The translations under genes and the position numbers were made by a program. From the NCBI RefSeq assembly GCF_000980815.1, contig NZ_CP011311.1:310001-374000 (forward strand): a DNA stretch of 64,000 nt, written 5' to 3'. Position 1 is the stretch's first letter; each line of letters begins with the position of its first letter. This stretch comes from Corynebacterium camporealensis. Lineage in GTDB: Bacteria; Actinomycetota; Actinomycetes; Mycobacteriales; Mycobacteriaceae. This document shows positions 34 to 63,723 of this stretch, piece by piece. Under the pieces are notes generated by a model. The model was not told the origin of the DNA. It was given only the letters and a program-made list of their open reading frames with translations, and made no database searches.

Positions 34-1278
34 TTATTCAGCTTTCACCGGGCTCCAGAGGGGAGTATCGCGGCGTATCTTGGCCACGCCTTGGCCGGTG
101 AGGCGCCAGGCACGGGCAATGAGGTCGCGGTCGTCGTCAGTAATCAGATTGCCCATCAGACGAGCTGCAGCAGGCATGAGTGCCTTGCCGACTGGGCCGC
201 GCAGTGCGACTGGACCTGCGAAAGGCAGGAACTGTGGATAGGTCAGCAGGCGTGCCGCGGTGCGCGCAAGCAGGAAAGCTTCGCCGTAGTGGGCCCGCAA
301 GGTTTCTGGCCACAGCAGGGTGAAGTCGCGCTCGTCGAGCATCTCCACGGCTAGCTGTGCGGTTTCCAGGCCGTAGTCGATGCCTTCACCGTTGAGGGGG
401 TTGACACACGCAGCGGCATCGCCAATGAGCATCCAGTTCGCACCCGCCACGTTGGACACCGCACCGCCCATCGGGAGTAGGGCAGAGGCGACCTTTTCAA
501 TCTCGCCGAGGCCCCATGCCTCGCGCTGTTGCGCGGCGTAGTGTTGCAGAAGCTTTTTGGTGTTGATGCGGGCGGGGCGCTGCGATGTCGACAGGGCGCC
601 GAGGCCGATGTTGACCTGACCGAGTTCCTCACCGAGGGGGAATATCCAGCCGTAGCCGGGTTGGACGGTGCCGGATTCATCGTTAAGCTCCACGTGCGAA
701 TGCATCCACGGCTCGCTGGCGTGGGTGGAATCAGCGTAGCTACGTGCGGCGATGCCAAAGACCTCGCCTTGGTGCCACGTGCGGCCGAGCTGCTTGCCGA
801 AGGTGGAGCGCACACCATCGGCGACAATCGTCCACTTCGCCTGGATGGTGTCGTCGCCGACTTGGAAGCTGGTGAGGCGATTGCCGTCAAGCTCTGGTTT
901 GGCGGCGGACCCGTGGATGGCCGTGACGCCGTGGTCGAGGGCTGCTTGGCGGAGTTGGGCATCGAAAAGCGTGCGCGGCAGGGCGGTGCCTTCGGTGCTG
1001 GGGTAAGTATCAGGCCACGGTGCGGTAACAGAACCGCCGTAGCCGTGCAGTTTCAAGCCCTGGTTGCGGTAGGTCGGATTGACCTTGATGCCCAGCAGAT
1101 CCAGCTGGTGCATGGCGCGTGGGGTGAGGCCATCGCCGCAGGTCTTGTCGCGGGGGAACTCGGCGGCATCGATAAGTGCGACCTCCCAGCCAGCGCGGGC
1201 GGCATGGATGGCAGCGGCTGAGCCGGAAGGCCCGGCGCCGACGACGGCGACATCGAAAAGCTTGGGCATGTCGACCAT
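34..1278 (-). CDS. menJ: Geranylgeranyl reductase family FAD enzyme, probable menaquinone side-chain reductase
   Basis: Predicted flavoprotein that saturates one isoprene unit of the menaquinone tail, as MenJ does in mycobacteria. It is 414 aa. An N-terminal Rossmann motif GAGPSG at residues 14-19 binds FAD. The C-G-D-G element at 47-50 and the late GDAAACVNPLNGEGI stretch (around 285-305) are typical of the geranylgeranyl reductase branch of the PHBH fold. It is divergent from the polyprenyl diphosphate synthase gene next door, which would make the tail that it reduces. Corynebacteria contain dihydromenaquinones, which fits. The start at 1278 could also be the internal ATG at 1269 (MPKLFD). 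Family assignment is firm; the exact substrate is inferred from context. Confidence 0.8.
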   Translation of the reverse strand: MVDMPKLFDVAVVGAGPSGSAAAIHAARAGWEVALIDAAEFPRDKTCGDGLTPRAMHQLDLLGIKVNPTYRNQGLKLHGYGGSVTAPWPDTYPSTEGTALPRTLFDAQLRQAALDHGVTAIHGSAAKPELDGNRLTSFQVGDDTIQAKWTIVADGVRSTFGKQLGRTWHQGEVFGIAARSYADSTHASEPWMHSHVELNDESGTVQPGYGWIFPLGEELGQVNIGLGALSTSQRPARINTKKLLQHYAAQQREAWGLGEIEKVASALLPMGGAVSNVAGANWMLIGDAAACVNPLNGEGIDYGLETAQLAVEMLDERDFTLLWPETLRAHYGEAFLLARTAARLLTYPQFLPFAGPVALRGPVGKALMPAAARLMGNLITDDDRDLIARAWRLTGQGVAKIRRDTPLWSPVKAE

Positions 1279-1375
1279 TGTTGCAGATTAAGCCGCCTCG
1301 ACTATGTTTCCCCCTAGGTAGTGGACTAGGTTAGTAAAGGATTATCAGGTAACTAGGAGCAAGGACCTTCTTTTC

Positions 1376-2371
1376 ATGAGCAACGGCGACAACTCCGTCG
1401 ACTTGGGCAACTCGCAGCTCAACGCTCGCGTGCACGAAGGCGTGGCGGCGGTTGAGGAATTGCTGCAAACCGAAATTAACCGCGGTGAAGCATTTGTCTA
1501 CGACAAAGCTCAACACCTAGTCGCCGCGGGTGGCAAGCGATTCCGCCCCGTGATGGCACTGTTGGCCTCGGAATACGGCACTGACCCTTACAACGCCAAC
1601 GTTATTAAGGCTGCTGCTTCCGTGGAAATGGTCCACGTTGCCACCTTGTATCACGACGACGTCATGGACGAAGCTGACCGCCGTCGCGGCGTGGAATCGG
1701 CGAACTCCCGCTGGAACAATTCCGTCGCCATTTTGGCCGGCGATGCGTTGCTGGCTCACGCATCGAGGTTGATGAGTGAGCTCGATACGCATACCGTTTC
1801 GCACTTCGCGGAGACCTTCGAAGAGCTGGTCACCGGACAGATGCGTGAGACCGAAGGCGCCGGCGAGGCCAACCCAGTGGAGCATTACCTGGCGGTTATC
1901 AAGGAAAAGACTGCGGTGCTGATTGCGTCGTCGTCCTACTTGGGCGCTTATCACGCTGGCGCTAGCCCGGAACATGCTGTGGCTTTGAAGCGCATTGGTT
2001 CCTATGTGGGCATGATTTTCCAGATTGTTGACGACATTATCGACATCTTCTCCGACCCGGGTGATTCCGGTAAGACCCCGGGTACTGACCTGCGTGAAGG
2101 TGTCTTCACTCTGCCGGTGCTCTATGCGTTGGAAGAGGACAACGAAGTAGGTGAGGAGCTGCGCGCCCTGTTGACTGGCCCGCTGACGTCCGATGCCGAT
2201 GTCGGCCGCGCACTGGAGCTTCTCCATGCTTCCAATGGCCGTGCTAAGGCCATGGCAGTCGTACAGCAGTACCTCGATGCAGTGGATGCTGAACTGCACA
2301 CCCTGCCTCAGAATGCTGCGACGTGCGCGCTGCACCAGCTTGCTGACTACACCGTGCAAAGAGTCGGTTAA
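1376..2371 (+). CDS. ispB: Trans-polyprenyl diphosphate synthase
   Basis: Condenses isopentenyl diphosphate units onto an allylic primer to make the long prenyl tail, most likely of menaquinone. It is 331 aa, normal for the family. The first aspartate-rich motif DDVMD is at residues 94-98, followed by the RRRG arginines. The second, DDIID, is at 219-223, followed by the GKTPGTDLREG segment. The position between menJ and tRNA-Tyr matches the corynebacterial menaquinone locus. An AGGAG element lies upstream of the ATG. Chain length cannot be read from the sequence with certainty. Confidence 0.87.
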   Translation: MSNGDNSVDLGNSQLNARVHEGVAAVEELLQTEINRGEAFVYDKAQHLVAAGGKRFRPVMALLASEYGTDPYNANVIKAAASVEMVHVATLYHDDVMDEADRRRGVESANSRWNNSVAILAGDALLAHASRLMSELDTHTVSHFAETFEELVTGQMRETEGAGEANPVEHYLAVIKEKTAVLIASSSYLGAYHAGASPEHAVALKRIGSYVGMIFQIVDDIIDIFSDPGDSGKTPGTDLREGVFTLPVLYALEEDNEVGEELRALLTGPLTSDADVGRALELLHASNGRAKAMAVVQQYLDAVDAELHTLPQNAATCALHQLADYTVQRVG

Positions 2372-2435
2372 CCTGCCGATTTGCCCCCGAAGGGGACGCG
2401 TGTAGTAGAGTTACTTCTCGCACCACAGAGTGCAT

Positions 2436-2517
2436 GCCAGGTTGCCCGAGCGGCCAAAGGGAGCGGACTGTAAATCCGCCGGCATTGCCTTCAGAAGTTC
2501 GAATCTTCTACCTGGCA
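2436..2517 (+). tRNA. tRNA-Tyr (anticodon GTA)
   Basis: Acceptor arms GCCAGGT and ACCTGGC pair. The anticodon stem is GCGGA/TCCGC with loop CTGTAAA, giving GTA at 2470-2472. A long variable arm makes it a type II tRNA, as expected for bacterial tyrosine tRNA. CCA is encoded at 2518-2520. A strong terminator follows at once. Confidence 0.95.
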
Positions 2518-2522
2518 CCACC

Positions 2523-2556
2523 AACACCCCACGGAAATCCGTGGGGTGTTCTTTTT
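2523..2556 (+). terminator. Rho-independent terminator after tRNA-Tyr
   Basis: A perfect 13-bp stem (AACACCCCACGGA with its complement) with a 2-nt loop is followed by CTTTTT. It closes the tRNA-Tyr transcript. Confidence 0.85.
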
Positions 2557-2624
2557 GGTTTTAACTCTTCACTGCGTTGGTGTCTTCTACGGGTTGTTCG
2601 GGCCTGTGTGTGGGGTGGGGCACT

Positions 2625-2830: not shown

Positions 2831-3000
2831 GTGCTGACTGTGGCAGCTGCACAAAGAAGGTAGGTTTAAGCGTGCAATCATGGTGTATGAAAATATGCGA
2901 TACGCTGGCGATTTGTGTTCGTAGCTTAAGTCGGGTTACTCTTTTGAAGTCCGCAACGGAGAGCACAACGAAATATTGTTGAGTTCTACGGCGAGGATAT

Positions 3001-3853: not shown

Positions 3854-4741
3854 ATGAGCGACGAGAAGAACGTCGAAACCGTAGAGACTTCGGTGGAGGC
3901 CGAGCTGATCGGCAGCGTCCAGGACCAGGCCGCAGAAGCCGTAGCCGACGCCGAAGGCGATGCTGCCCAGACCGCGGCGGATGAGTCCGCAGCAGAGGAT
4001 GCCGAGGACGTACCGGCAGAGGCTGCCGCAGAAGAAGCCCCGGCAAACCCGGAAGAGGCTCTGGCAGCTGCTGAAGAGACTGACCCGGATGCGGAGTACC
4101 GCAAGCGTCTGCGCGAGTACGTGCGTGAGCTGAAGAAGCTGCCGGGCCAGTGGTACATCATTCAGTGCTACTCCGGTTACGAGAACAAGGTGAAGACCAA
4201 CCTGGACATGCGTGCCCAGACCCTCGAGGTGGAAGACTCCATCTTCGACGTGGTCGTTCCGATTGAGCAGGTTCTCGAGGCCAACAAGGACGGCAAGAAG
4301 AAGCTCGTCAAGAAGAAGCTGCTGCCGGGCTACGTCCTGGTGCGCATGGAGCTTAACGATGCCGCATGGTCCGTCGTCCGCGATACCCCAGGCGTGACCT
4401 CGTTCGTGGGCAACGAGGGTAATGCAACCCCGGTGAAGATTCGCGACGTCGCCAAGTTCCTGCTCCCGAACGACACCGCTGCCTCCAAGGGCGAGGCTGC
4501 CGCCAACAAGGACGAAGGCGAGCAGGTTGTCTCCATGCCGGAGAAGGAGCTGAAGAAGGCTTACGCACACGACTACGAGGTCGGCGAGGCTGTCACCATC
4601 CTGTCCGGCCCGCTGGCATCGGTGTCCGCTACTATTTCCGAAATCGACCCGGAAACCGGCAAGATGCAGGGCCTGGTGTCCATCTTCGGCCGCGAGACCC
4701 CGGTGGAGCTGTCCCCGACCGAGATCGAGCGCATTTCCTAA
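3854..4741 (+). CDS. nusG: Transcription termination/antitermination factor NusG
   Basis: Binds RNA polymerase, suppresses pausing and links transcription to Rho or ribosomes. It is 295 aa, longer than the roughly 180-aa E. coli protein because residues 1-80 are an acidic, alanine-rich extension, a known actinobacterial trait. The NGN domain begins near 98 (GQWYIIQCYSGYENKV). The C-terminal KOW domain is at about 243-290 (VGEAVTILSGPLASVSA). It lies downstream of secE and upstream of rplK, the standard order. Confidence 0.95.
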   Translation: MSDEKNVETVETSVEAELIGSVQDQAAEAVADAEGDAAQTAADESAAEDAEDVPAEAAAEEAPANPEEALAAAEETDPDAEYRKRLREYVRELKKLPGQWYIIQCYSGYENKVKTNLDMRAQTLEVEDSIFDVVVPIEQVLEANKDGKKKLVKKKLLPGYVLVRMELNDAAWSVVRDTPGVTSFVGNEGNATPVKIRDVAKFLLPNDTAASKGEAAANKDEGEQVVSMPEKELKKAYAHDYEVGEAVTILSGPLASVSATISEIDPETGKMQGLVSIFGRETPVELSPTEIERIS

Positions 4742-6256: not shown

Positions 6257-6739
6257 ATGTGCCTTACTTATCCTGCGCATCTGCGCGGTGCGAGCCTGAA
6301 GCTTTCCGATGCCCCCTTGAAAACCTGGCAGCACACCAACGAATCCCTGCTCCTGGGACATGGCAAGGCAACTTTTGAGGCGGCAGCCGATAACCTCTTC
6401 AGCTTCCGCGCCCACGCCCGCGCTGGAGTGGAGGTCAGCCCGCACCCACAGCGTGAGGATGCTGTCATGCTGCGCTTTGGTCCGACGCTTTCGCCGTGTC
6501 TTATCCTGCAACGCGAGCGCACCAACAACCGTGCGGTGCTCGTTTACGGCACCCTGCCCGGCCACGTTGAGTGCGGGGAAGAGGCCTTCATCGTTGAGCT
6601 TCACGATGACGGCCGCGTCATGGGTAAGTGCTGCGCCTTCTCCCGTCACGCCTGGTGGCCAGCAAAACTAGCCCCCTGGGCAGCCCGCCGGGTGCAGCTG
6701 CACATCACCAGAAAGTATCTCGAAGGCATGCGCCCGTAG
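6257..6739 (+). CDS. DUF1990 family protein
   Basis: Function unknown. It is 160 aa and soluble. It has the features of the DUF1990 family: an early FxxAxxxLFSFRAH block (about 36-52), a RFGPTLSPCLIL block near 73, a VLVYGTLPGHVECGEEAF block near 93-111, and a C-terminal segment with HAWWPAKLAPWAARRVQ. The family belongs to the START/Bet v 1-like folds that bind small hydrophobic molecules, but no ligand is known to me. It is probably read from a leaderless transcript. It has no obvious operon partner; the lipoprotein gene downstream has its own -10 box. Confidence 0.7.
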   Translation: MCLTYPAHLRGASLKLSDAPLKTWQHTNESLLLGHGKATFEAAADNLFSFRAHARAGVEVSPHPQREDAVMLRFGPTLSPCLILQRERTNNRAVLVYGTLPGHVECGEEAFIVELHDDGRVMGKCCAFSRHAWWPAKLAPWAARRVQLHITRKYLEGMRP

Positions 6740-7142: not shown

Positions 7143-8531
7143 CTAACGAACATCGATGGCGTCGAGTACCCATTCCTGCGCCGAATTCCGACGGATATTC
7201 TTCGCCAACGGAATCTGATGCGAGGCCGATTCCAGGATGTGCATGAAGTAGCCCGCGGTATTCGGAATGGCAATCGTATCGCCGACCGCGACGCCGTCCG
7301 GGAAATCGAGCTTGCGACGCAAAATGACCTCATCTTCGATGCAGTAGGCACCGACCATGAAACCGGTGCGCGGCTCACGTTCCACATCACCTGCGGTCGG
7401 CACGAGCGCAGGGTCCAGCAGCAAGTCATCCGCTGCAGTGCGGCATTGCGTGCGATTCATCGCCACACCAATCAACGGCAGCCCGTCGGAGCGTGACTTA
7501 AGGAAAGACACCTCGGTCAGGATTATGCCGCAGCCATCGAGCAGGCTGCGCCCAGGTTCCAGGTGCAGCGCAATATCGCGCTGCCTGAGCGCTTCCTTGG
7601 TGGTGCCGTGCTCGGGAGTATCGCCATCGAGAAGCTGGCCCAACCACTCACCGCGCGTCGGAGTCTGCCAGAAGGGATAGGTATTGCTCAGTGGGTCAGA
7701 CTTCCACGTAAACGGTTCACCGGTGCCGTCACGCTGTGCTTGGATGCGCTTTTGGTAGTGCTCCCACTGCGCGGGATCTTCCAGGTAACTCATCGGCACA
7801 CCACCGCCGATATCAATGAACTTCGTCGGCTGGCCCTGCGCACGCAGGTGGTCGACCAAGGAAATTGCTTCGCCCAGTGCTAGACGACGATCCGCTTCCG
7901 CATAACCGTGCAAATGCACATGCACGCCCACAGCCTCAACACCTTCTGGCCACTGCGCGTCCTTCCACTGACCGAGCAGCTCACCAAAACGCGTAGGCGG
8001 CAGCTTTGATGGATCGGGGGCTAGTCGCGGCGCGAGGCGGGCGCGCGACGGCATGCCGTCGCGCAGGGAGGAGGAATTCAAGCGCCCAATGCGTTCTAGC
8101 TCCGCGCGGGAATCACACGAAATCACCACGCCGGCGTCCAATGCGATGCGAAGGAGTTCGTCGGTTTTGATGGCAGCGCTGACGATGATGCGCTCGGGTT
8201 CCACGCCGGCATCGAGGACCTGGAGAAGCTCGTCGCGGCTCGCGACATCAATGCCATGTCCTGCGGTGCGTGCAGCATCAACGAAGGTCAGTGCCTTGTT
8301 TGCTTTGCGAGCAAAGAAGACTTTGGTGTTGACGCCGCGGGAGGTGCCGGCATCGATAAGCTCTGCGGCGTTACGCGGCAGCGGTGAGGCATCCAGGACG
8401 TTAACTGGGGAGCCGAACTCCTGGGTGAGCGCGCGGACCTGCTCTGGATTGCTGAGTAGCTCTTGCATCCAGGGCTCCCAGCGCGCGGCGAGAGGAACGG
8501 TTCCGTGAATCGGCAAAATCTTGTCGGTCAT
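7143..8531 (-). CDS. Type III PLP-dependent decarboxylase-like enzyme (Y4yA / SbnH-like)
   Basis: An alanine-racemase-fold PLP enzyme of the ornithine/diaminopimelate decarboxylase group. It is 462 aa from the ATG at 8531. The PLP lysine is expected at K76 in FFARKANKA. HVHLHGYAE and a glycine-rich IGGGVPM phosphate-binding segment follow. The start is chosen because it overlaps the stop of the preceding gene by ATGA; an in-frame start at 8555 lies inside that gene. It is the third gene of an overlapping cassette with an FAD protein and a cysteine-synthase-like enzyme. SbnH-type enzymes decarboxylate siderophore intermediates, which suggests a small-molecule pathway here. Substrate unknown. 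Confidence 0.72.
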   Translation of the reverse strand: MTDKILPIHGTVPLAARWEPWMQELLSNPEQVRALTQEFGSPVNVLDASPLPRNAAELIDAGTSRGVNTKVFFARKANKALTFVDAARTAGHGIDVASRDELLQVLDAGVEPERIIVSAAIKTDELLRIALDAGVVISCDSRAELERIGRLNSSSLRDGMPSRARLAPRLAPDPSKLPPTRFGELLGQWKDAQWPEGVEAVGVHVHLHGYAEADRRLALGEAISLVDHLRAQGQPTKFIDIGGGVPMSYLEDPAQWEHYQKRIQAQRDGTGEPFTWKSDPLSNTYPFWQTPTRGEWLGQLLDGDTPEHGTTKEALRQRDIALHLEPGRSLLDGCGIILTEVSFLKSRSDGLPLIGVAMNRTQCRTAADDLLLDPALVPTAGDVEREPRTGFMVGAYCIEDEVILRRKLDFPDGVAVGDTIAIPNTAGYFMHILESASHQIPLAKNIRRNSAQEWVLDAIDVR

Positions 8532-9829
8532 GGGTTGGCTACTTTCTCCGCCCACTGCGGGATTTGGTCGTGGTCTTTTCTGCTGAGCGAGTCATGCCCG
8601 GGCAGTTCGATTTCGTTCATGCGGCCAATAGCGACGGTACCGGGCACGTCCTGAAATGGTGCGGGTTTGCCTTGCGGGGCGATGGTGGCATCGATAAGCA
8701 GGTCAATCTCCGGGGCGCTGTTGTCGCCGCTCTGCCACGCTTCGATGGTCTCAGGCGAGGTGAAGTAGTCGAGTTGGATGGTGCCGGCGTCGATAAATTC
8801 CAGCATCCTGCGTGCCGTGACTGGTGGTGGTCCGAAGGCGACGCGTTCCAGCGTGCGGGAAAGCTCGCGGAAACCTGGCACGATGCCGTGGTCGACGTGG
8901 CGTTGCACGAAGTTGGAGAACAGCCCGCGGAAAGCCGCGCCGATGGCTGCGGCGGGATTGAGTGGGGCAGTGCCTTCGGCAATCTGGAGGGAATGCCGTA
9001 GTTCGCCGACACTATCGCCGGAGAAGTCGCTGCCATCGAGGACGGCGCTCAGGTCGTCGGTGTGGAAGTCACCGAGGGTGAGTGCGGCATCGATAAGCAC
9101 TGCTCGCAGCTCGGCATCGTTGACGGCGTTGTAGGCGCGCTCGTGCAGTTCCTCCGAGAACTCCGGGCCAGGTCGCGCGGGGTCGGGTTTGACCTCCATG
9201 AAGCGGCCGCTGCGGGTAACGGGGTAGATAACCTCGGCGGTTTCGCCGTAGCGCAAGCAGACATCGATGAAGGTCAGCGAGGCGCCGCGCACGCCGATGC
9301 GGCGGGGATTACGCGGCAGGTGCGCGCCGAAATAAAGACCGGTGACGGGCACTTCGCTGGGCTCGCGATGCAATGCGCCGGGGTGGTCATGGTCGTGACC
9401 GGTGCACAGCAGGACGTGGTCGAAGGGCTGGTCATCGACGAGGAATTCGTCGTTCTCGCGGGTAACTGTAGCGACGGTGCGGGGCAGGTGGCGCACGCTG
9501 ATGCTATCTGGGGCGCGCTGGATGGCGGCGTGCCAGCTATCGATGAGGAACTCGCCAACCTGTGCGCGCGGCGGGAAGGGATCGGTGCTGTCGATGCCCT
9601 GGTCGCGCCGCCAGTCGTTGAAGCTGCCCAGGTGAGTCTTCACGATGCTGCTGGCGACGTTGAGGCGCCAACAGTGCGGCTGGTCAGGGCGATATACTGC
9701 GCCCGCCCCGGCGGGGTAGGGGTCGAAGACGGTGATATCCACCGGGCGAGTGGCGCGATTGATGAGTTCTTCGACGGCCCAGAGGCCGCGTGGACCACCG
9801 CCAATAATCGCTATGCGGGTGTTAGTCAT
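8528..9829 (-). CDS. FAD/NAD(P)-binding protein of a biosynthetic cassette
   Basis: 433 aa. The N terminus carries a dinucleotide-binding motif IIGGGPRG (residues 8-15) followed by the acidic FDPYPAGAGAVY stretch, and then RLNVASSIVKTHLGSFNDW. This matches the NAD_binding_9 type of FAD/NAD(P) proteins, many of which sit in secondary-metabolite loci. A second GTG-like segment (VLLCTGHDHDHP) near 140 fits the NAD-binding half. It overlaps the upstream gene by 8 bp and the downstream gene by 4 bp, so the three are translationally coupled. The reaction is not known; oxidation or N-hydroxylation of the amino acid made by its partner is possible. Confidence 0.68.
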   Translation of the reverse strand: MTNTRIAIIGGGPRGLWAVEELINRATRPVDITVFDPYPAGAGAVYRPDQPHCWRLNVASSIVKTHLGSFNDWRRDQGIDSTDPFPPRAQVGEFLIDSWHAAIQRAPDSISVRHLPRTVATVTRENDEFLVDDQPFDHVLLCTGHDHDHPGALHREPSEVPVTGLYFGAHLPRNPRRIGVRGASLTFIDVCLRYGETAEVIYPVTRSGRFMEVKPDPARPGPEFSEELHERAYNAVNDAELRAVLIDAALTLGDFHTDDLSAVLDGSDFSGDSVGELRHSLQIAEGTAPLNPAAAIGAAFRGLFSNFVQRHVDHGIVPGFRELSRTLERVAFGPPPVTARRMLEFIDAGTIQLDYFTSPETIEAWQSGDNSAPEIDLLIDATIAPQGKPAPFQDVPGTVAIGRMNEIELPGHDSLSRKDHDQIPQWAEKVANP

Positions 9830-10832
9830 GAGAGGGATTTTCTAGTCGGGCGTGCAGCTCATCCTGGTCAATAGGGAAGTGTTCGGTGACCCAGTCGTCG
9901 TTGTAGATGGTGTTGAGGTAGGGCTGGCCGGCATCGTGAAGCACGGCGACGACCTGGGCACCTTCGGGAAGTTCAGGGGCCATGCGCTGGAAGGCAGCGA
10001 TGACGGCGCCACCGGATGCACCGGGCAATAGGCCCTCGGTGCGGGCGAGGCGGCGGGCGGCGATGACGGCGTCGAGGTCCGGTACGCGCTCGATGCCGTC
10101 GGGTTCGAATTGGGTGGACAGATCGGTGACCACACCAGCGCCATAACCAGGCAGGAGGCGAGTGCCGCGGGTGCCGCCGAAGAGGACGGAGCCTTCCGCA
10201 TCCACGCCGATGGTTTTCGTATGGGCGTCGACGCTGTCCAGCTTGCGGACGCATCCACCCAGCGTGCCGGTCGTACTCATGGCAACTAACAGGTGGGAGG
10301 GAGCGAAGCCGAGCTGCTCCAGAATCTCGGTCATCGTGCCCTCGGAATGGGCCTGGAATGCGGCCTGGTTGGAGTACTGATCCAGGTTGTGGGAGTTGGG
10401 GATGGCATCGAGAAGCTCTTGCACGCGGGAGCGGCGAGCCGTGAGCCAATCGCCGGTCTCAGGATCCGGGTGGTCGAGCATTTCGACCTCGGCACCGTAG
10501 GCACGCATGGTCGCGACGGTGGACTCGTTCACGCGCGGGTCAACGACGCAGTGAAAGTGCATGCCGTGCAGCGGGGCCAGTCGGGCAAGTGCCATGCCCA
10601 AATTGCCTGACGATGACTCAATCAAAGTCGATCCCGATTCGATGTCACCGTTGGCGATGGCATCTTCTAACAGGGCACGGGCGGTGCGGTCTTTTGCAGA
10701 ACCGCCAAGGTTGAACTGCTCGAGTTTGACGTAAAAGGAAAGGTCATCGCGGGGATTAATCGCATCCAGACGCATGAGCGGAGTATTGCCGATGGGTGGA
10801 TTATCCCGGTCGAAGATACGCTGCGTAGTCAT
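9822..10832 (-). CDS. Cysteine-synthase-like PLP enzyme (SbnA-like)
   Basis: Fold-type II PLP enzyme, 336 aa. The PLP lysine is K47 in NLGGSAKDRTA. The substrate loop ESSSGNLGMA (72-81) replaces the TSGNTG/SSGN of true cysteine synthases and resembles SbnA, which makes a diaminopropionate precursor from O-phosphoserine and glutamate. The GTGGT loop of cysteine synthases is replaced by STTGTLGG, also as in SbnA-like enzymes. First gene of the cassette, with a -10 box 7 nt before the ATG. No SbnB-type dehydrogenase gene is nearby, so the product need not be diaminopropionate. Confidence 0.75.
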   Translation of the reverse strand: MTTQRIFDRDNPPIGNTPLMRLDAINPRDDLSFYVKLEQFNLGGSAKDRTARALLEDAIANGDIESGSTLIESSSGNLGMALARLAPLHGMHFHCVVDPRVNESTVATMRAYGAEVEMLDHPDPETGDWLTARRSRVQELLDAIPNSHNLDQYSNQAAFQAHSEGTMTEILEQLGFAPSHLLVAMSTTGTLGGCVRKLDSVDAHTKTIGVDAEGSVLFGGTRGTRLLPGYGAGVVTDLSTQFEPDGIERVPDLDAVIAARRLARTEGLLPGASGGAVIAAFQRMAPELPEGAQVVAVLHDAGQPYLNTIYNDDWVTEHFPIDQDELHARLENPSHD

Positions 10833-11819: not shown

Positions 11820-12341
11820 ATGGCAAACCCAAAGAACACTGCAGACCTTGCAGCACTGAAGGAAAAGCTGGCTGACGCCAACTCTGTCGTTCTGACCGAG
11901 TACCGTGGCCTGACTGTTGCTCAGCTGCAGGAACTGCGTAACGAGCTGGGTTTCGATGTTGATTACTCCGTCGCCAAGAACACCCTCTTCAAGATCGCTG
12001 CCGCGGAAGCTGGCATCGAAGGTCTTGACGAGCAGCTGACTGGCCCGACCGCAATTGCGTTCATCAAGGGCGAGGCAGTGGATGCAGCAAAGGTCATCAA
12101 GAAGTTCGCTGATGACAATGACGCATTCGTCGTCAAGGGTGGCTACATGGACGGCGGCGCACTGACCGCTGAACAGGTTGAAGCCATCGCCAAGCTGGAC
12201 AACCGCGAGACCACTCTCGCGAAGCTGGCTGGTGCCATGAAGGGTTCTATGGCAAAGGCTGCGGCTGTATTCAACGCCCCTGCTACCAAGATGGTCCGCA
12301 CCGCTGTTGCGCTGCAGGACAAGAAGGAAGCAGAAGCTTAA
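11820..12341 (+). CDS. rplJ: 50S ribosomal protein L10
   Basis: Anchors L7/L12 dimers to the ribosome stalk base. It is 173 aa from the ATG at 11820, with GAAGGAGG 7-13 nt upstream. A longer in-frame reading from 11748 would start inside the attenuator and has no ribosome-binding site. The N-terminal RNA-binding domain includes VLTEYRGLTVAQLQELR, and the C-terminal helix (from about 135) binds L12 dimers. Followed by rplL. Confidence 0.95.
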   Translation: MANPKNTADLAALKEKLADANSVVLTEYRGLTVAQLQELRNELGFDVDYSVAKNTLFKIAAAEAGIEGLDEQLTGPTAIAFIKGEAVDAAKVIKKFADDNDAFVVKGGYMDGGALTAEQVEAIAKLDNRETTLAKLAGAMKGSMAKAAAVFNAPATKMVRTAVALQDKKEAEA

Positions 12342-12864: not shown

Positions 12865-13191
12865 CCGTTTTCGGGTTCGAATGTACATGTCTGATGTAGC
12901 AGACATATTCATCCAATGGTCTCGGGGATTAGGTGTGGGGTTCTGGAGTCATTTTGGCGCTGATTCGGCCGAATTTTGGCTTCGATTCGGTGGGGTAGTC
13001 GGGTTGTATGAGTGGGCATCGATAAGCATGGTGCGTTAGTGCTGGTCAGAGTGATGTCTTCTGGTCGGAGTGGTGTGGGTTTCCAGGTGTGGGGATGTGC
13101 AGGAGGGGTGTGAGCTGCGGCCGTAACACTGCAGTACGCGCGGGGCGGTGGCTGCAGGTTTGGAAGGATTCGGGCTGTAGAATAAGGCCTC
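12865..13191. other. Gene-free stretch between rplL and the DUF3068 gene
   Basis: It contains a perfect 7-bp inverted repeat ATGTCTG-N6-CAGACAT (12887-12906, no T-run, so an operator-like site rather than a terminator). It also holds one copy of the GGCATCGATAAGC word (13015-13027) and two 16-nt near-repeats, CTGGTCAGAGTGATGT and CTGGTCGGAGTGGTGT, 19 nt apart at 13042 and 13061. No gene is visible on either strand. Confidence 0.55.
13178..13183 (+). promoter_or_regulatory. -10 box for the DUF3068 gene
   Basis: TAGAAT is followed by 8 nt and the ATG at 13192, giving a leaderless or nearly leaderless message. No ribosome-binding site is seen. Confidence 0.48.
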
Positions 13192-40440: not shown

Positions 40441-42570
<2,130 letters not shown>

Positions 42571-54143: not shown

Positions 54144-54181
54144 CGCGCATCGACTGTCGATGCGCGCTTGTCGATGCGCGC
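54144..54181. repeat. Hairpin with one duplicated arm
   Basis: CGCGCATCGA-CTG-TCGATGCGCG is a perfect 10-bp hairpin, and the right arm is repeated at once as TCGATGCGCGC after CTTG. Alternative folds are therefore possible. It sits between convergent genes and may serve the minus-strand side. Confidence 0.6.
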
Positions 54182-54639: not shown

Positions 54640-55524
54640 TTAGAGCAGTTCATCGACCTCCGCGCGGCGCGGGGCATCAGCGCCAGTACGCGCAATAGTC
54701 AGCGCGGCTGTCGATGCCGCGAATTCGAGAATCTCGTGCCAGTCATACGCGCTGAGCTGTTCTAGGTCTGCGGCGTCAAAGTTGCGCTCGGCAATCTTGG
54801 TCAAAAGCGCTGCCATCACGGCATCGCCGGCACCGATGGTGTCCGCGATATCGACCTTGACCGGCGGTACGTCGAGTTCCGTCGTTCCCGCACGGACGCT
54901 GAGGCCGTGCGCACCGTGGGTGGTCACGACGACGGGCACCTTCTTCAGGGACTCCACGCCGAGGAACTCTGCTTCGGCGTTCGAGACTTTGAGGATGGTG
55001 ACATCGTCAAGCAATGCCTGCAGAAACTCACGGTGCTCAGCGGTATCAGTATCCGGGCGGATGTTCGGGTCAACTGCAATGAGCGAGCCATTCTTGGCCA
55101 TGGTGTGCAGCACCTCCGCGTAGCGGGAGGCACCTGGCTCCATGGCGAGGGACAAGGTGCCAAAGTAGGCCACGCGGGCATCGTTAGCTACTAGCTCCAC
55201 CAGGCGATCTGCGGTGCCTTCGTTATAGAAGGAGTAGGTTGCTGAGCCACCCTCATCAAGCGAAGCAACCGCCAACGTCGTCGGTTCGTCACCCCGCTGT
55301 ACCAGGGAGGTATCGACACCTTCGTCCTCGAGGCGCTTGACCAATGCATCACCAAAGGCATCAGTGGACAGTCGCGACTGGAAACCGACCTGCGCACCCA
55401 AACGTGCAGCGGCAACAGCCACATTGAAGGGACCGCCACCCAAAGAGGGAGTCAGATCGGAAAGTTCGCCAGAAGCGGTGGGCACGAGATCGACGAGGCC
55501 TTCGCCGGAGACAAGAATCTGCAT
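54640..55524 (-). CDS. PfkB-family carbohydrate kinase, fructokinase-like
   Basis: 294 aa ribokinase-fold enzyme. The substrate-side motif GGGPFNVAVAAARLG lies near 29-43. The late ATP/anion-hole motif DTIGAGDAVMAALL contains the catalytic Asp, and the VDPNIRPD segment is typical of fructokinases. Which sugar is used cannot be read. A TAGTAT -10 box six bases before the ATG predicts a leaderless message. No partner transporter is nearby, so the pathway is unclear. Confidence 0.75.
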   Translation of the reverse strand: MQILVSGEGLVDLVPTASGELSDLTPSLGGGPFNVAVAAARLGAQVGFQSRLSTDAFGDALVKRLEDEGVDTSLVQRGDEPTTLAVASLDEGGSATYSFYNEGTADRLVELVANDARVAYFGTLSLAMEPGASRYAEVLHTMAKNGSLIAVDPNIRPDTDTAEHREFLQALLDDVTILKVSNAEAEFLGVESLKKVPVVVTTHGAHGLSVRAGTTELDVPPVKVDIADTIGAGDAVMAALLTKIAERNFDAADLEQLSAYDWHEILEFAASTAALTIARTGADAPRRAEVDELL

Positions 55525-55589: not shown

Positions 55590-58016
55590 CTACCTCTGGG
55601 CAGCCATGACGGGTGTTTGAGCTGCCTGTGGTGACACTTGCACTAGTGGATTCGCGATGCGACCGGCGATCATCAGCGAAGAGTTCTGATCACCTAGGTC
55701 CACCATCCCGTGGGGATTGCGCAGCTGTAGACGATTCAGACAAGAGTGCTGGAAGTCCTCGGCCAGGAGAGGAAGGCCGGAAGGATACTCAGCCTCGTAG
55801 TCTTCAATGCAGGCGCGAGTAGCCAACCAGAATTCTTCTTCTGGCAGGATGTCGTGGTCATCCATGAGCGCAGCCAGGTGGCGCAAAACGCCATCGATGA
55901 TGTCGGTATGCAGGGACAGCGCCCGCTGTTCGAGGTCGAAGGAGCCATCGTCAGCTTGGATGCGGGCGAAGGCTTCCGGCACCTCGCGTTGTGCGTTGAC
56001 CACGGCGACTTCCTCACCTAAGTCCTTGAACCAGGAGCCGGTGGGTAGGCACTCGGTGAGTTCCACAATCACGTTCTCTGAGTGCGGCATAAAGACAATG
56101 TCGAAACCGGCCAGAGCGCGGATTGCCGGGCGGAAGTACACATCCAACAGTGCACGCAGCCAGTCGGCAGCACTATGCCCCGAACGCGCAATGAGCTCAC
56201 CTACCAAAGGTTTCCCAGCGGGATCGACGTGCAAGACTGCAGCCAAGGTCATCGCCGCTTTGCCTGGCTCTAGTTTCTCTAATGGCGAAGAACGCCAGAG
56301 CGCGGAAAGCATCTTCGTGTGCTGGTCGTCAGAGGAAGCTCCACTGTGCAAACTCGAGTGGTAGATATCGCCTTGGAAACCCACCGCGGCAATCTCAGGG
56401 AGCAAACGCACGTTGTGGTTGTGGAAGTCAGCGTCGTTTCCGAGAGTGTCCTGCAACCACTCATTAATCGCTGGGGTAGTGGACATGTACTTTGGGCTCA
56501 ACCCACGCAGGAATCCCATGTTGCGTACCGATGCTGCGGTCTTCACATAGGGTGCGGCGGGATCGCTGAGGTTAAAGAAGGTACGCAGTGACTGCTGCGG
56601 ATGCATAACCGCAGTATCGGTGCCTAGGTGAATAAGGTCGCCGTTGAGGAAGCTATCGGCGAAGTTCGTGGCAACGCGCATCTGCCACTGCCAAGGATGC
56701 ACGGGAAGCGGCAGGTAATCCGCGGGATCAATATCGCGTGCGCGAAGACGCTCCTTCCAGTCCTGCGGTGCTTGCTGGTTGAGGAACTCTTCTAGATCCA
56801 AGTCTTCTACAGCAGCACTGGTGAGTTTGTCTCGTCGGGCGGCGACCCATTCCAGGCAGGTAGAACGCCCCATCTCTGGTGCATAGCGACGAGCATCGAC
56901 TTCGCTGAAACCACCGCGACCAGCATTTGCGACAAAGCCAGGATGTCCTTCATACATGGCGGACTCGCACAACTGGAATGCGTTGGCTTGCTGGTGTGGT
57001 GTATCAGTTTCGGTAGCCAAGGTCTCAGCGAGAGTGGAGCTGCTGAGACGAGGCATCGCGAGAACGCGCGCACGCGCGGTGACTGTGGCAGAGATTTCTT
57101 CTAAGTAGTCGTGCAGGAAGTGCGCGGGGATTCCAAGTTCTGGTGCGGCGGCAGCAATAACTTCACCGATTCCGGGCAAATCCGCATACCCACGGGCACA
57201 GAGCGAATCGACGTCGATGCTCAGATGCTCGAGGTAGTGGGTATGCGCTAAGAACGTAAATTCGTAGCCACCCAGCTCAATCAAGTACTGGGCCGGGCCC
57301 AATCTGGTAGCTGGCAGTAACCTTTCGTGGTGGAATTCACGCAGCATCTTCGCCAAGATTTCGCGATTCGCGCGTTGCAGATAAGCGACCTGCAGGTGGC
57401 CATCGGTTGCAGCAGTTGCAGGTGCAGTTGATGACGTGGCGGTGGGAACTGCCAGCGCGCCTAGTTCGGAGCACGCGAAAGCGTCTGGGGTGCAGTACTG
57501 CACGCGTGCGGTCTTGGTACCCAGGTCCGCAGCCTCGAGTCCTGGATAATCCCGGAAACCAGCGCGGGCATTCTTCGCCAGAATCTTGTCGTTGCTTGTA
57601 TCGGGTTCAACGAGGATACGCGTGAAACCGCGGACATCGACAAGCCAGGAGATGACGGTGGCGAAGAGGGCATCGGAAAGCCCGTGCTCTGGGTGCGCTG
57701 GAGGTTGGGCAAGAAGGACATGCATGCCAATGTCGCCATCCTGGTGCGGGACGTGCTCGCGCAGCAGTACACGTGCGGGGTTGTAGGTTTCCACTAGGGC
57801 CAGCGGAGTGCTGTCGCGTTCGATGATCCACGCATCCTCATCGGCGCTGTTAGCGATGCGCTGGTACTCCTGCGCCACGGACTCCTCAGTGGCATCGAGA
57901 CTGTCCCAGAACTTTGCGTGCACGGAGGTCAGCCAGCTGGTGAGCAGTGCGGCATCGGCAAGCGGATGGACCGGACGCAGATGGAATTGACCGCGGTGAG
58001 TAGTAATCGTGTGCAT
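55590..58016 (-). CDS. Fused acyltransferase-NIS siderophore synthetase
   Basis: 808 aa. Residues 1 to about 190 form a GNAT acyltransferase of the IucB/MbtK kind (FHLRPVHPLADAALLTSW, DIGMHVLLAQPPAHPEHG, RILVEPDTSNDK). The rest is an IucA/IucC synthetase with GHPGFVANAGRGGFS, LPVHPWQWQ and the late FMPHSENVIVELTE and MVDLGDQNSSLMIAG. The fusion combines the roles of DesC and DesD of desferrioxamine synthesis: acylation of the N-hydroxy-diamine and ATP-dependent condensation. It starts directly after the monooxygenase stop. Confidence 0.82.
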   Translation of the reverse strand: MHTITTHRGQFHLRPVHPLADAALLTSWLTSVHAKFWDSLDATEESVAQEYQRIANSADEDAWIIERDSTPLALVETYNPARVLLREHVPHQDGDIGMHVLLAQPPAHPEHGLSDALFATVISWLVDVRGFTRILVEPDTSNDKILAKNARAGFRDYPGLEAADLGTKTARVQYCTPDAFACSELGALAVPTATSSTAPATAATDGHLQVAYLQRANREILAKMLREFHHERLLPATRLGPAQYLIELGGYEFTFLAHTHYLEHLSIDVDSLCARGYADLPGIGEVIAAAAPELGIPAHFLHDYLEEISATVTARARVLAMPRLSSSTLAETLATETDTPHQQANAFQLCESAMYEGHPGFVANAGRGGFSEVDARRYAPEMGRSTCLEWVAARRDKLTSAAVEDLDLEEFLNQQAPQDWKERLRARDIDPADYLPLPVHPWQWQMRVATNFADSFLNGDLIHLGTDTAVMHPQQSLRTFFNLSDPAAPYVKTAASVRNMGFLRGLSPKYMSTTPAINEWLQDTLGNDADFHNHNVRLLPEIAAVGFQGDIYHSSLHSGASSDDQHTKMLSALWRSSPLEKLEPGKAAMTLAAVLHVDPAGKPLVGELIARSGHSAADWLRALLDVYFRPAIRALAGFDIVFMPHSENVIVELTECLPTGSWFKDLGEEVAVVNAQREVPEAFARIQADDGSFDLEQRALSLHTDIIDGVLRHLAALMDDHDILPEEEFWLATRACIEDYEAEYPSGLPLLAEDFQHSCLNRLQLRNPHGMVDLGDQNSSLMIAGRIANPLVQVSPQAAQTPVMAAQR

Positions 58017-59351
58017 TTAGAAACCCCCAAACGTCTGGAAAGCGATGTTCTTTTCCACCGGGTAAACCTCCCGGCCACAAATCTCGCGCAGGATGATCGA
58101 GTTGCGCCACGGTCCCATGCCCAGGTCCGGAGCGTTGAGCGAGTGGACGTGCTCATCAGCATTAAGCACAAAGAGAGTGTTGTCTGCATCTACCTGGAAG
58201 TGCTCACCGACGTCCATCCGACCGGTGGCATCCTTTGCGATGAACTCGCTGCAAGGCTCCAAAAACTGCGGCATCTGTGGCGCCTTATAACCGGTACACA
58301 GGATGACCGCGTCAGTCGCATGTACTGCGCTGGTGTCGGTCTCCGCGTGATGTAAGCGCAACCGGTGCCGACCAGTGGAGCTATCCGTTGCCTGCTCGTT
58401 GGGTGCACAGGCAGCACTGACTCCTGCTCGCAGAGTGGTGCGGGATGTGCCATCCAAACTCAAACGGTAGAGCAAGTCATAGATGGCATTGATGGTCTCA
58501 CCGGAGATGCCTTTATATAAGTTGCGCTGGTTGCGGTTGAGCTCATCGCGCTTCGCCTCCGGCAAGCGACGAAAGTAAGAGGCGTACTCCGGCGAGGTCA
58601 TCTCCAAGGTCAACTTGGTGTATTCCATAGGGAAGAAGCGCTCGGAGCGAGTAAACCAATCCACGTGGGCTTCGGTGGTGCAAAGTAGGTCGGCATAGAT
58701 TTCCGCGGCGGACTGCCCGGAGCCAACGATGCTTATCGATGCCTGCTTGGCCAACCATTCTTTGTTGTGCAGATAGTCTGCGGAGTGGATAACTCCCTCG
58801 GCATCGAGTGCGGGATGCAGCTCCTCCGGTACGAAGGGCGTTGTGCCGACACCACTGACCACGTGGCGGGCAGCGATGGTGCCGTGTCCGGTGACATCGA
58901 CAAGCCATGGCGTATCGCCTTCCGGATTCGGGCGCACTGCCTTCACACGGGAATCAAAATGCACACTGTCTAACTGCCCTGCCACCCAGGTGCAGTAGTC
59001 GGAATACTCTCTACGCAGCGGGTAGAAGTCCTCCCGGATGTAGAACTGGTGAATTCGCCCCGACTGTTTGAGATAGTTCAGGAAGCTATAGCGACTGGTT
59101 GGATCAGCCATGGTGACCAGGTCGGCCATGAAGGGCACCTGGATAGTGGCTTCTGGAAGCAACATCCCGGGATGCCAGATGAACCCTGAGCGCTGCTCAA
59201 AGAACGCCACACTAAGCTCCCCGGATTCTACTAAGGGCTGACACAGCGCAGCCATCCCCAGGTTGAAGGGGCCGACACCTACTCCGACGATGTCGAAGGT
59301 AGGCATCGATGAGTGTGATGCAGCAGCAGAAGAAGAAGAAGAATCAGACAC
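58017..59351 (-). CDS. L-lysine/ornithine/diamine N-monooxygenase of siderophore synthesis
   Basis: 444 aa flavoprotein of the IucD/PvdA/DesB family; puts a hydroxyl on a side-chain amine to create the future hydroxamate. The N-terminal GVGVGPFNLGMAALC holds FAD, followed by the family segment FIWHPGMLLPEATIQVPFMADLV. The NADPH site is IVGSGQSAAEIYADL near 205-220, and the late LFVLNADEHVHSLNAPDLGMG is a signature. A Ser/Ala-rich start (MSDSSSSSAAASHSS) is unusual. Between decarboxylase and synthetase genes in one operon. Confidence 0.87.
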   Translation of the reverse strand: MSDSSSSSAAASHSSMPTFDIVGVGVGPFNLGMAALCQPLVESGELSVAFFEQRSGFIWHPGMLLPEATIQVPFMADLVTMADPTSRYSFLNYLKQSGRIHQFYIREDFYPLRREYSDYCTWVAGQLDSVHFDSRVKAVRPNPEGDTPWLVDVTGHGTIAARHVVSGVGTTPFVPEELHPALDAEGVIHSADYLHNKEWLAKQASISIVGSGQSAAEIYADLLCTTEAHVDWFTRSERFFPMEYTKLTLEMTSPEYASYFRRLPEAKRDELNRNQRNLYKGISGETINAIYDLLYRLSLDGTSRTTLRAGVSAACAPNEQATDSSTGRHRLRLHHAETDTSAVHATDAVILCTGYKAPQMPQFLEPCSEFIAKDATGRMDVGEHFQVDADNTLFVLNADEHVHSLNAPDLGMGPWRNSIILREICGREVYPVEKNIAFQTFGGF

Positions 59352-59417: not shown

Positions 59418-60878
59418 TTAGCGAGTACGAATCAACGCCTCCGAGTGAGCACGAACGATGGCATTGAGCACGGCCTGGATGTCTTCATCACGAAGAGTCG
59501 GGTCGAGAATTGTGAACTTGAACAGTGGAGTGCCGTGTATTTCAGTCACCGCCACTGCGGCCTGACCTGAGTCAAAGAGCTCATCGCGGATGCGGTAATA
59601 CTCAGCGGGATGTGGGGAGTCGGCGGACTCTGTTGCCTGGAGTTCGAACAAGACAGTGCTCAGTTGCGGGGTTTCCCACAGTTGAAGTTTGGGGAAGTCG
59701 TCGACAAGGGCAGCTGCGCGCCGGGCCAACGCGCAGCAGGTATCGAAGGACGCACCGATGCGTTCTTGACCTATGGTGCGCAGCGTGACCCAGAGCTTGA
59801 GCGCGTCAAAGCGGCGGGTGGTTTGCAGTGAGATATCCGCGAGGTTGGGCCGAGAAGACTCAGCTGGGTTGAGGTAGCTGGCATTCCATCGGATGTGTTC
59901 AAGTCGCTGGCCTTCGGCAAAGAGCACGCAGGAACAGGCCACTGGCTGGTAGAAGCCTTTATGGAAATCCAGGGTGACGCTGTCCGCCTTTTCGATGTCG
60001 TAGAACAACGATGCGGATTCCGGGCCCAACAGGCCGGCACCGCCGTAGGCGGCATCGACGTGGACGGGCACGTCGTGATGGTGTGCGATATCGATGACTT
60101 CGCTTAGCGGATCGATGCTGCCGCGATCGGTACTTCCAGCGGTACAGATAACCGCGGCGGGGTATTTCCCCGCCCGGCATACTTCTCGCAAGGAAGCTTC
60201 CAGCGACAACGGACGCATCTGTCCGTGGAAGTCCTCGGAAATCTCGACGATGCTGTCGGGGCTTAATCCCAGTAGCTCGACGCCACGGGCGATGGAGTAG
60301 TGCGCACTCGGTGTGCACAGAATGCGAAGTTTGCTTAAGGCTTCGAAGTGGGAATAGCCCTGAGCTTGAAGCTCCTGCAGGGCCTGGTTGCGGGCAACGG
60401 TAAGCGCTTGCAGGTTTGATTGAGTACCACCGGTGGTAAAGACACCTTGTGCACTCTGACCGAAACCGACCAGGTCTGCTGCCCAACGAATGAGCTTTTG
60501 CTCGATGGCTGCGGCAGGCCCTGCTTGGTCCCAGGACTCCACGGCAGTGTTGAGTGAACTCGCGAGGACCTCAGCAGCAACAGCTGGAATAGCAACCTGG
60601 CAGTTGAGATGCGAGATGTAGCGCGGGTGGTGATAGAACACCGCTTGTTTAAGCCACAACTCTTCCAGTTCGCTTAAGCAGTCGGAGAACGAACTGCAGG
60701 GTTGGCGGAAGTCGACATCGTGAAGCGCTGCAATGGCATCCTGAAAGTCCTGGCAGGGTGGTGAATCAGCATAAAGGTGCTGTGCTGCACAGGTGCTTGC
60801 TTCCTGCACTGCGGACAGAAAATCGGCAGGTGTCTCACCACTGCCCACTAAGTGCGATTTGTTTAATGGTTTCGGCAT
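59418..60878 (-). CDS. PLP-dependent amino acid decarboxylase of siderophore synthesis
   Basis: 486 aa group II decarboxylase (DesA / diaminobutyrate-decarboxylase type). The PLP lysine lies in DSVTLDFHKGFYQPVACSC, the cofactor Asp/His region is PVHVDAAYGGAGLL, and TTGGTQSNLQAL is the glycine loop. Decarboxylation of lysine (or ornithine/diaminobutyrate) would supply the diamine for the next enzyme. First gene of the siderophore operon, with two DtxR-like boxes upstream. Confidence 0.84.
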   Translation of the reverse strand: MPKPLNKSHLVGSGETPADFLSAVQEASTCAAQHLYADSPPCQDFQDAIAALHDVDFRQPCSSFSDCLSELEELWLKQAVFYHHPRYISHLNCQVAIPAVAAEVLASSLNTAVESWDQAGPAAAIEQKLIRWAADLVGFGQSAQGVFTTGGTQSNLQALTVARNQALQELQAQGYSHFEALSKLRILCTPSAHYSIARGVELLGLSPDSIVEISEDFHGQMRPLSLEASLREVCRAGKYPAAVICTAGSTDRGSIDPLSEVIDIAHHHDVPVHVDAAYGGAGLLGPESASLFYDIEKADSVTLDFHKGFYQPVACSCVLFAEGQRLEHIRWNASYLNPAESSRPNLADISLQTTRRFDALKLWVTLRTIGQERIGASFDTCCALARRAAALVDDFPKLQLWETPQLSTVLFELQATESADSPHPAEYYRIRDELFDSGQAAVAVTEIHGTPLFKFTILDPTLRDEDIQAVLNAIVRAHSEALIRTR

Positions 60879-62480: not shown

Positions 62481-62495
62481 AGCTACTTAAGCTTT

Positions 62496-62524
62496 AATCC
62501 CGACCTCACTGAGGTCGGGATTTT
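62496..62524 (+). terminator. Terminator after rplE
   Basis: A perfect 12-bp stem AATCCCGACCTC / GAGGTCGGGATT with loop ACT, followed by TT. It may serve both rplE and the convergent transporter gene. Confidence 0.82.
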
Positions 62525-62530
62525 GGTGTT

Positions 62531-63723
62531 TTAACGGCCTTGTTGATTGTTGACTTCGCGGACGAATAGCAAGGCAGGGATGACACTGAGTGCGCCAATG
62601 CCAGCACATGCCCATAGGCCCTGGGCTAACGTCCAGCGGTGACCAATGGCACCCAGCGGAGTATCCCACATTGCCGAAATCGACGTAACCAGTGTGTTTT
62701 GAATAGTGGTGACACGGCCGAAAGCTTCTTCGGCGATGAGTTCGTGCAGTGTGGCAAAGATGACTGCCCCGGCCGCGGGTGCGGTCAGTACAGACAGGCC
62801 GAGTGGGATCACCATCCAGAGTGTGGCCTCAGTCAGCGCTGCGACCGTAATGCAGAGCGTAATCCACAAAGTCGTACCGACCTGCAATGCGGCAAAAGAA
62901 AAAGTCTTCTGGAAAAAGCGTGTGGTGAGTGCACCGGCAATACCGATGGCTCCGATGGCCGTGCGTGCCAGACCGATGATCCAGCCCGCGTATCCACTTG
63001 CCTCCAGTGACAGGATTGTGAGAAACAGCGCGCCGTTAATTGCACAGTTGGAACCCATCTGCATCACGATCAGTCGCCGCAGCATCCGAGAACGCGCTAC
63101 CAAACTCAGTCCCTCTGCCGTCGTGCGGATGATGGTGGTGCTGGAACGTGTTGGTGGATTGAGCTCTGCATCAATGAAGATGTAGAAGGCGGCTGTTAAT
63201 GCACTACCTGCCGCAAGCACGACGAAGGGGAATGCGGCAGCGATATCCAACAGCACGCCACCGATGAACGGCCAATAAGCCCTGCGAACTGCATGCGGGC
63301 CTGGATAAAGCCCTGCGCGGTGGCTATGTCTTCTGCGGCAACCAATTGGGGCAGCGAGGGATTGGCGCTGGCTTGGCCGATGGAGTGGGCGAACATCGAT
63401 AAGCCCAGCAATGTGGCAAAAGCCCCCGCGCTAAATGTAGCTTCACCTTGAACAACTACGAAGGCTAAGCCCAGATTGCATAGCGCCGCCACCACATTGG
63501 CGCCCATGATTACGGGCTTGCGGTTGTATTTGTCAGCGGCTGCACCGCCAATGATTCCGCCGAGTAGCGCCGCCAGACCACTAATGGTTCCCAGCACACC
63601 AGCTAGCGTTATGCTGCCGGAAAATCTGAACGCCACAATCGGCACCGCTATTCCTGCCGCCACTCCGCAGATCTGAGCTATCACGTCAGAAAACAGATAT
63701 AGCCGGAAATTCTTCGTGTGCAT
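62531..63723 (-). pseudogene. MFS transporter interrupted by a one-base frameshift
   Basis: Together the two frames give about 397 codons of a 12-span major-facilitator protein. The N-terminal part (63723 down to about 63270) has GGIIGGAAADKYNRKPVIMGANVVAAL, the loop 2-3 signature. It then leaves frame in ...FAGLIGRSS. The other frame continues as GGVLLDIAAAFPFVVLAAGS to the stop at 62531. Loss of one C (GGCCCG to GGCCG) near 63269-63272 explains the break. The start at 63723 has AAGGA 7 nt upstream. Near the siderophore locus, so it could have been its exporter; a sequencing error is the alternative. Confidence 0.78.

Follow-up and report, generated by a model that had tools for sequence, protein, structure and literature searches.

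What does a 12-base word signify that recurs seven times, on the plus strand in all but one case, within 64 kb of a corynebacterial chromosome? A sequence-only reading of a 64,000-nucleotide stretch of Corynebacterium camporealensis (GCF_000980815.1, NZ_CP011311.1, positions 310,001-374,000; hereinafter the window), whose source genome (G000 in our numbering) is a single contig of 2,451,810 bases, had proposed that the 12-mer GGCATCGATAAG reflects selection on DNA, such as a segregation, recombination or chromosome-architecture signal. Here we show that the 12-mer is the commonest spelling of a larger bipartite word, and as such undercounts the signal, and that this word occurs in one-letter dialects across the genus; we argue that it is a putative DNA-uptake sequence.

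Recounting recovered the seven exact 12-mers that had been claimed for the window, as against a mean of 0.01 in 100 dinucleotide shuffles, and also the nine copies of the core ATCGATAAG (shuffle mean 0.19), with corrected positions for some sites (a start at 1165 for 1166, a start at 26561 for 26571, and a minus-strand site at 58732-58743 for 58731-58743). Using a simple purpose-written gene caller, we found that five sites do read CTT ATC GAT GCC (Leu-Ile-Asp-Ala) in minus-strand genes, but that these are four genes rather than five, since the sites at 8687 and 9086 share one gene (8528-9829). The site at 58732 reads GCA TCG ATA AGC on the same strand as its gene, bearing out the different frame with an ATA codon, and the copy at 13015 lies in no called gene and is thus intergenic, as reported. 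The 8:1 plus-strand bias of the cores is real within the window, but the 12-mer is evenly divided over the 2.45-Mb genome (94 copies, 47 per strand; reversed control 0); the excess in the window is local chance.

The k-mer enrichment in 464 kb indicated what the 12-mer belongs to: GGCATCG followed by GAAAG, TTAAG, GCAAG or ACAAG rises alongside it, and these spellings have CATCG-N2-AAGC in common. The resulting word has the form G-n-CATCG-N2-AAGC, being bipartite, directional and asymmetric (not palindromic), with a spacer of strictly two bases (279 copies in 464 kb vs 4-18 at gaps 0, 1 and 3-8). In a one-base profile, eight of the 11 fixed positions are nearly invariant, namely the outer G, CATCG and, within AAGC, the first A and the G; the second A of AAGC is partly tolerant, as in G000 is the last C towards T, and the second G and the spacer are free. 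Counting from the C of CRTCG, a weaker preference for G is seen at -5, -11 and -14. These extra Gs are common to both dialects described below and fall at third codon positions in the main frame; those at -11 and -5 recur in the 23 copies of G000 that lie beyond called genes (0.83 and 0.65), and less clearly in the 11 such copies of G006 (0.55 and 0.45). A putative reader of the word would cover about 25 bases. Genome-wide, G000 has 1,337 copies of CATCGNNAAGC (665/672 on the two strands; 0.545 per kb; reversed control 18) and 578 of GGCATCGNNAAGC, which has GG in front (reversed control 2). The window holds 34 copies of CATCGNNAAGC, 22 on the plus and 12 on the minus strand, with 30 in called genes and four between them; the 12-mer at 1165 falls outside these because its next base is T, and the core at 44389 is excluded from the word family because CATCG and the final C are missing. 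Some of the stretches that we analyzed were picked for their 12-mer sites, and local densities are therefore slightly high (0.60 vs 0.545 per kb in G000), while the genome-wide counts are unbiased.

The signal acts at the level of DNA rather than protein. In 417 called genes of G000 we counted 256 words, against 15.8 after a synonymous-codon shuffle and 8.1 after codon permutation. The reverse complement lies on the coding strand in 209 cases vs 47, and most copies (199/256) occupy a single frame, as would be expected of a coding artefact, with the word produced by preference for a peptide or a codon context (Leu-x-Asp-Ala spelled CTT NNC GAT GCC); the peptide L.DA is itself roughly doubled (190 vs 89 permuted). 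Yet the synonymous shuffle yields only 4.5 copies in this frame (opp2), other frames are likewise enriched (observed/shuffled: same2, 39/9.8; opp1, 10/1.35; same1, 7/0), and there are intergenic copies; taken together these refute the artefact, to which we attach next to no probability. The G-dialect word is similarly in excess of the synonymous shuffle in three species (34/1.7, 33/3.05 and 39/2.75). The strong support for selection or drive on DNA thus comes from the synonymous shuffle, the several frames, the intergenic copies, the strict spacing and the in-place dialect flips described below.

Chi and KOPS (FtsK-orienting polar sequences) are likewise over-represented directional chromosomal words, and they follow replichores. 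The G000 word ignores them: taking base 1 of the contig as origin, as in both replichore splits made here, the G000 stretches gave 102/103 and 40/34. For the 12-mer, whose strand skew had been predicted to switch at origin and terminus, the best split under any placement of the origin was 22, against a shuffled mean of 18.2 (p=0.29). The proposed segregation or origin-terminus signal is accordingly not supported, neither 12-mer nor word showing replichore skew in G000. The proposed recombination signal would hold in part should the word serve transformation at the step of DNA uptake. A Chi-like site, instructing a recombination or repair nuclease-helicase of the AdnAB/RecBCD/AddAB type after breaks, would account for the genome-wide excess, the directionality, the conservation in place and the weak strand lean of G006 (see below). 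However, known Chi sites show replichore skew and are shorter than this bipartite word of about 25 bases with its weak outer Gs, and repeated whole-genome dialect flips would be hard for a housekeeping repair signal; we regard this explanation as unlikely. A site for a nucleoid, FtsK-KOPS or SMC-loading protein strikes us as a shade less likely again. Such an architecture signal would suit the near-random spacing along the genome (coefficient of variation 1.09 vs 1.00), but there is no polarity towards the terminus in G000, a switch of specificity would put about a thousand sites out of action together, and 60 of the 242 congeners lack a clear signal of the word. The word also has a low density in low-GC DNA: 10-kb bins below 55% GC (4/65 bins, the bins coming in part from a region picked partly for its lack of listed words) hold 0.25 words vs 5.0-6.4 elsewhere, and this word-poor DNA was probably acquired. 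Segregation/KOPS and Chi were both rejected on the missing skew in G000.

One such stretch of G000 (L178; 545,001-565,000) has no word in 20 kb, a GC fraction of 0.53 and a called-coding fraction of 0.54, and is probably acquired DNA. It is followed by a defense island (L179, 565,001-585,000, and L180:8930-12217 on the minus strand) with a Cas9 gene nearby, whose best PADLOC matches are a DrmD-like helicase, a type IIG restriction-methylase and a UvrD-like helicase; the two 20-kb stretches after L178, which carry these defense genes and the Cas9 gene, have five and four words.

We scanned 242 Corynebacterium genomes and 199 from other genera of the same order, and found that the word exists in two dialects that differ in one letter. 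The A dialect, GGCATCGNNAAGC, is present in 136-578 copies in 17 of the 242 genomes and in at most 66 in all others; the G dialect, GGCGTCGNNAAGC, reaches at least 50 copies in 165 genomes (maximum 976), with strand totals over these of 29,966/29,956. The 17 A species hold 1-41 G words, and none of the scanned genomes has a high count of both. The remaining 60 carry neither dialect clearly, with 20-49 copies of GGCGTCGNNAAGC in 11 and fewer than 20 in 49; among them G083 shows a weak A signal (CATCGNNAAGC 159, control 10). In the 199 genomes of other genera the combined word was found 3-57 times, mostly near the reversed control and never near the carriers, with some small genomes a few-fold above that control (e.g., 13 vs 2). 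A de novo search for spaced words in ten genomes placed CATCG-N2-AAGC, or a closely overlapping spelling, at the top in G000, G006, G143, G151 and G063. It returned CGTCG-N2-AAGC in G005 and G036, whose counts are intermediate (38 vs 1.6 and 37 vs 2.8 expected); in G004 a repeat obscured it, and a further count gave 34 vs 2.2 in 80 kb. No clear word emerged in G083 and G087, where CATCGNNAAGC is weak (nine in 100 kb each), and no other dialect stood out in the word-less G014, G171 and G070. Among 20 further loci, those of C. tuberculostearicum, C. striatum and C. silvaticum fell on the G side and that of C. sp. KPL1814 on the A side; the C. macginleyi locus leans to A (5 vs 1), with genome G147 being of the A dialect, one metagenome-assembled genome is evenly split (4/4), C. 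phocae gives 1/0, and neither form occurs in three Mycolicibacterium loci.

Individual genomes show further variation. A strong repeat of G004 (L073-L076), GTCGGNNNNGTCG, has 85 copies in 80 kb and is probably a repetitive gene. G143 (L093-L097) has a sub-dialect, GGCATCG-GC-AA, with a nearly fixed spacer (G 0.84, C 0.81; 32 words). The G-dialect genomes G004, G005 and G036, which lie near the A clade, retain 40-58 A words, where many other species have at most 10, as if these were relics of an earlier dialect. In G071 (L202-L206), which has neither dialect, 100 kb contain 43 copies of a different spaced word, TGACGNCGCG, which is enriched at gap 1 alone (2-4 copies at gaps 0 and 2-5), with 37 copies in genes vs 2.7 after the synonymous shuffle; ATGACGNCGCGG has 321 copies (161/160; control 0) in this genome and no more than 37 in any of the remaining 241. 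In this species the first word may have given way to an unrelated one.

A phylogeny of the Tad-helicase locus (one FastTree run on 41 genomes, in which some TadA, TadB and TadC rows are fragmentary) nests the A dialect inside G-dialect species and calls for at least four A/G changes. Two of these fall within a ten-genome clade with support of 0.999 (G000, A; G036 and G073, G; G004 and G005, G; the G006 group, A), while the deep nodes of the A clade are weak (0.29-0.70). The fates of individual sites, scored on aligned orthologous DNA one species pair at a time, indicate how such changes might proceed. When 25 A words of G006 were aligned with C. tuberculostearicum (79% identity), the G word stood at the identical position in 19 cases, neither word in six and the A word in none, whereas ordinary 11-mers flip in 1.5% and are identical in 18% of cases; viewed in reverse, 19 of 28 are flipped and three are the same. 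From G000 to the G-dialect genomes G004, G005 and G036, the flipped sites number 6/11, 8/26 and 5/17, with none the same. Between G000 and G006, both of the A dialect, 27/59 are kept vs a background of 13.8% and none is flipped, and against the word-less G014 none of 13 is kept (background 9.5%). On balance, the sites tend to persist where they are, with a concerted change of one letter.

These flips bear on two further explanations. Debris of a dispersed mobile repeat would supply many copies on both strands, but the flanks have only weak spaced Gs in common, copies lie inside reading frames, and one letter flips in concert between species; we consider this as improbable as the coding artefact. 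A methylation- or restriction-linked word, the dialect of which follows the specificity of a methyltransferase, could have its dialects explained by a specificity switch; an uptake tag might, moreover, include methylation. Against this, we know of no recognition type that is a bipartite asymmetric word with a two-base spacer, and restriction sites are usually avoided in genomes. The precedent is HIP1 of cyanobacteria, which PMC4390886 describes as over-represented, linked to orphan methyltransferases, and rare in exceptional species; HIP1 is palindromic, whereas the Corynebacterium word is directional and spaced and has dialects. We rate this explanation marginally below the architecture signal.

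What we observe, then, is a strictly spaced, directional, DNA-level word, free of replichore skew in G000 and with no enrichment seen beyond the genus; no scanned genome abounds in both of its one-letter forms, which flip in place. We think it likely that G-n-C-[A/G]-TCG-N2-AAGC with its extra Gs is a putative DNA-uptake sequence of Corynebacterium, read by the competence machinery, the receptor of which drifts in specificity. A receptor of this machinery (the Tad/Flp pilus or ComEA-ComEC) would bind the word on incoming DNA, giving conspecific fragments that carry it a better chance of entry and recombination; this uptake bias would copy words into the genome as a drive and maintain those already there. 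Should the receptor come to prefer a different letter at one position, sites that nearly match would be favored and the set converted one by one, yielding species dialects that limit exchange between species. We infer that a transformation receptor can switch specificity because biased uptake then converts the near-matches, whereas such a change would hardly be open to a cellular protein that depends on a thousand functional sites. Receptor binding, biased uptake and drive are the conjectural steps here. The fuller picture, of a Gram-positive genus with a Tad-pilus-read uptake word, two repeatedly switched one-letter dialects, replacement by TGACGNCGCG in at least one species, hundreds of chromosomal sites rewritten in place at each switch and a mating barrier raised between species, seems to us about evenly poised between true and false.

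The word resembles the DNA uptake sequences (DUS) and uptake signal sequences (USS) described for the Gram-negative Neisseriaceae and Pasteurellaceae (PMC2346458) in its copy number, presence on both strands, genic location, orientation bias and dialects; we file it as a candidate rather than a proven member. With the neisserial DUS it shares shortness, directionality, a copy number in the hundreds to thousands and single-letter dialects among related species (PMC3630211); it differs in its unrelated sequence, its two half-words with a free two-base spacer, its Gram-positive host and the lack of an excess of inverted pairs. As in the Pasteurellaceae USS, one orientation is commoner in coding strands with no general orientation bias of the genome (PMC2346458), but the sequence is unrelated, the flanks are single spaced Gs and there is no clear bias relative to gene ends. 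No earlier report of the word was found in the open-access literature searched; passages of PMC5217627, on spaced motifs, name CRISPR-related (clustered regularly interspaced short palindromic repeat) pairs for three Corynebacterium genomes.

Machinery that could read such a word is encoded in G000, which has a Tad locus (L003:2359-6829) coding for an ATPase (T2SSE), two T2SSF proteins, a small pilin-like DUF4244 protein and a TadE/G-like protein, along with ComEA (with HHH and a weak SLBB match), ComEC and DprA. The tad genes are required for transformation of the actinobacterium Micrococcus luteus, and Tad together with ComEA/ComEC is reportedly frequent in actinobacteria (both in passages of PMC4322843). 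The T2SSE (TadA) and DprA families were found in 80/80 genomes tested and the ComEC domain in 49/50; the presence or absence of ComEC, TadA and DprA was rejected as a discriminator, all being near-universal. T2SSE scores are lower, and often partial, in many word-less genomes, which we read as probable phylogenetic distance and not loss; DprA matches are weak in the word-less G084 and G157 (60 and 129 bits), two genomes being too small a basis for an argument. In G001 the ComEC domain match is split over two reading frames (G001:C4:524862-525658), a frameshift or assembly error.

Several results weigh against an uptake sequence. The Com/Tad genes occur in word-less species too and so do not discriminate, and no demonstration of natural transformation in Corynebacterium was found in the open-access literature searched. 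No column separating the dialects was found in the Flp, TadE-like and TadE/G-like pilins (52, 91 and 98 gap-free columns) or the helicase; with gaps allowed there were 3-4 in ssd, two in ComEA and 1-2 in TadA/TadB/TadC, none convincing (a first scan of TadA/TadB being blind, as some extracted pieces were fragments). One TadA column has Q in 12/14 A genomes and R in the four G genomes read, but TadA is expected in the cytoplasm. Residue-dialect association among the Tad proteins and ComEA thus offered no convincing receptor candidate. The word is less dense outside called genes than inside (0.374 vs 0.636 per kb), and its 578 full copies (1,337 in the looser form) are at or below the low end of the 943-5,918 quoted for Neisseriaceae (PMC3630211). 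An excess of inverted pairs of the neisserial terminator type, a trait that not all uptake sequences have, was not found, pairs less than 300 bases apart being in the same orientation in 28 cases and opposite in 21. The replichore split of G006 (68/55 and 31/43) leans weakly (111/197), which we do not count as skew. Lastly, some species pairs conform poorly: G006 to C. macginleyi keeps 3/9 words (background 0.37), C. striatum to C. tuberculostearicum, both of the G dialect, keeps 1/5, and C. striatum against four A genomes (3-8 words each) gives one flip each.

Table 1. Copies of the word and the 12-mer in the window (positions of the window, base 1 being its first letter)
Feature	Position	Strand	Remark
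Word CATCG-N2-AAGC	678..688	+	in gene 34-1278 (-)
Word	960..970	+	with GG
12-mer GGCATCGATAAG	1165..1176	+	reported 12-mer; next base T
Word	1251..1261	+	
Word	4351..4361	-	with GG
Word	6301..6311	-	with GG
Word	6598..6608	-	
Word	7625..7635	+	
Word	8351..8361	+	reported site 8349
Word	8689..8699	+	reported site 8687
Word	9088..9098	+	reported site 9086
Word	9932..9942	+	with GG
Word	10406..10416	+	with GG
Word	12185..12195	+	same strand as called gene
Word	13017..13027	+	intergenic; reported site 13015
Word	16627..16637	-	
Word	17413..17423	-	
Word	17554..17564	-	
Word	23479..23489	-	
Word	24214..24224	-	
Word	26563..26573	+	reported site 26561
Word	27965..27975	+	other frame (opp1)
Word	32527..32537	-	in no called gene
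Word	38134..38144	-	with GG
Word	38182..38192	+	same strand as gene
Word	41505..41515	+	same strand as gene
Word	54166..54176	-	in no called gene
Word	55002..55012	+	
Word	57635..57645	+	
Word	57671..57681	+	with GG
Word	57953..57963	+	with GG
Word	58731..58741	-	reported minus-strand site; frame same1, ATA codon
Word	58895..58905	+	
Word	60716..60726	+	
Word	63394..63404	+	in no called gene; reported core 63395

If the word is indeed read at uptake, its dialected presence in 182 of 242 Corynebacterium species would make natural transformation a widespread trait of the genus, either now or in the recent past, and adding the word to DNA would help genetic work. It could also explain species barriers to recombination among bacteria of the skin and airways, and the evolution of uptake specificity would become countable, through repeated one-letter switches that convert the sites in place.

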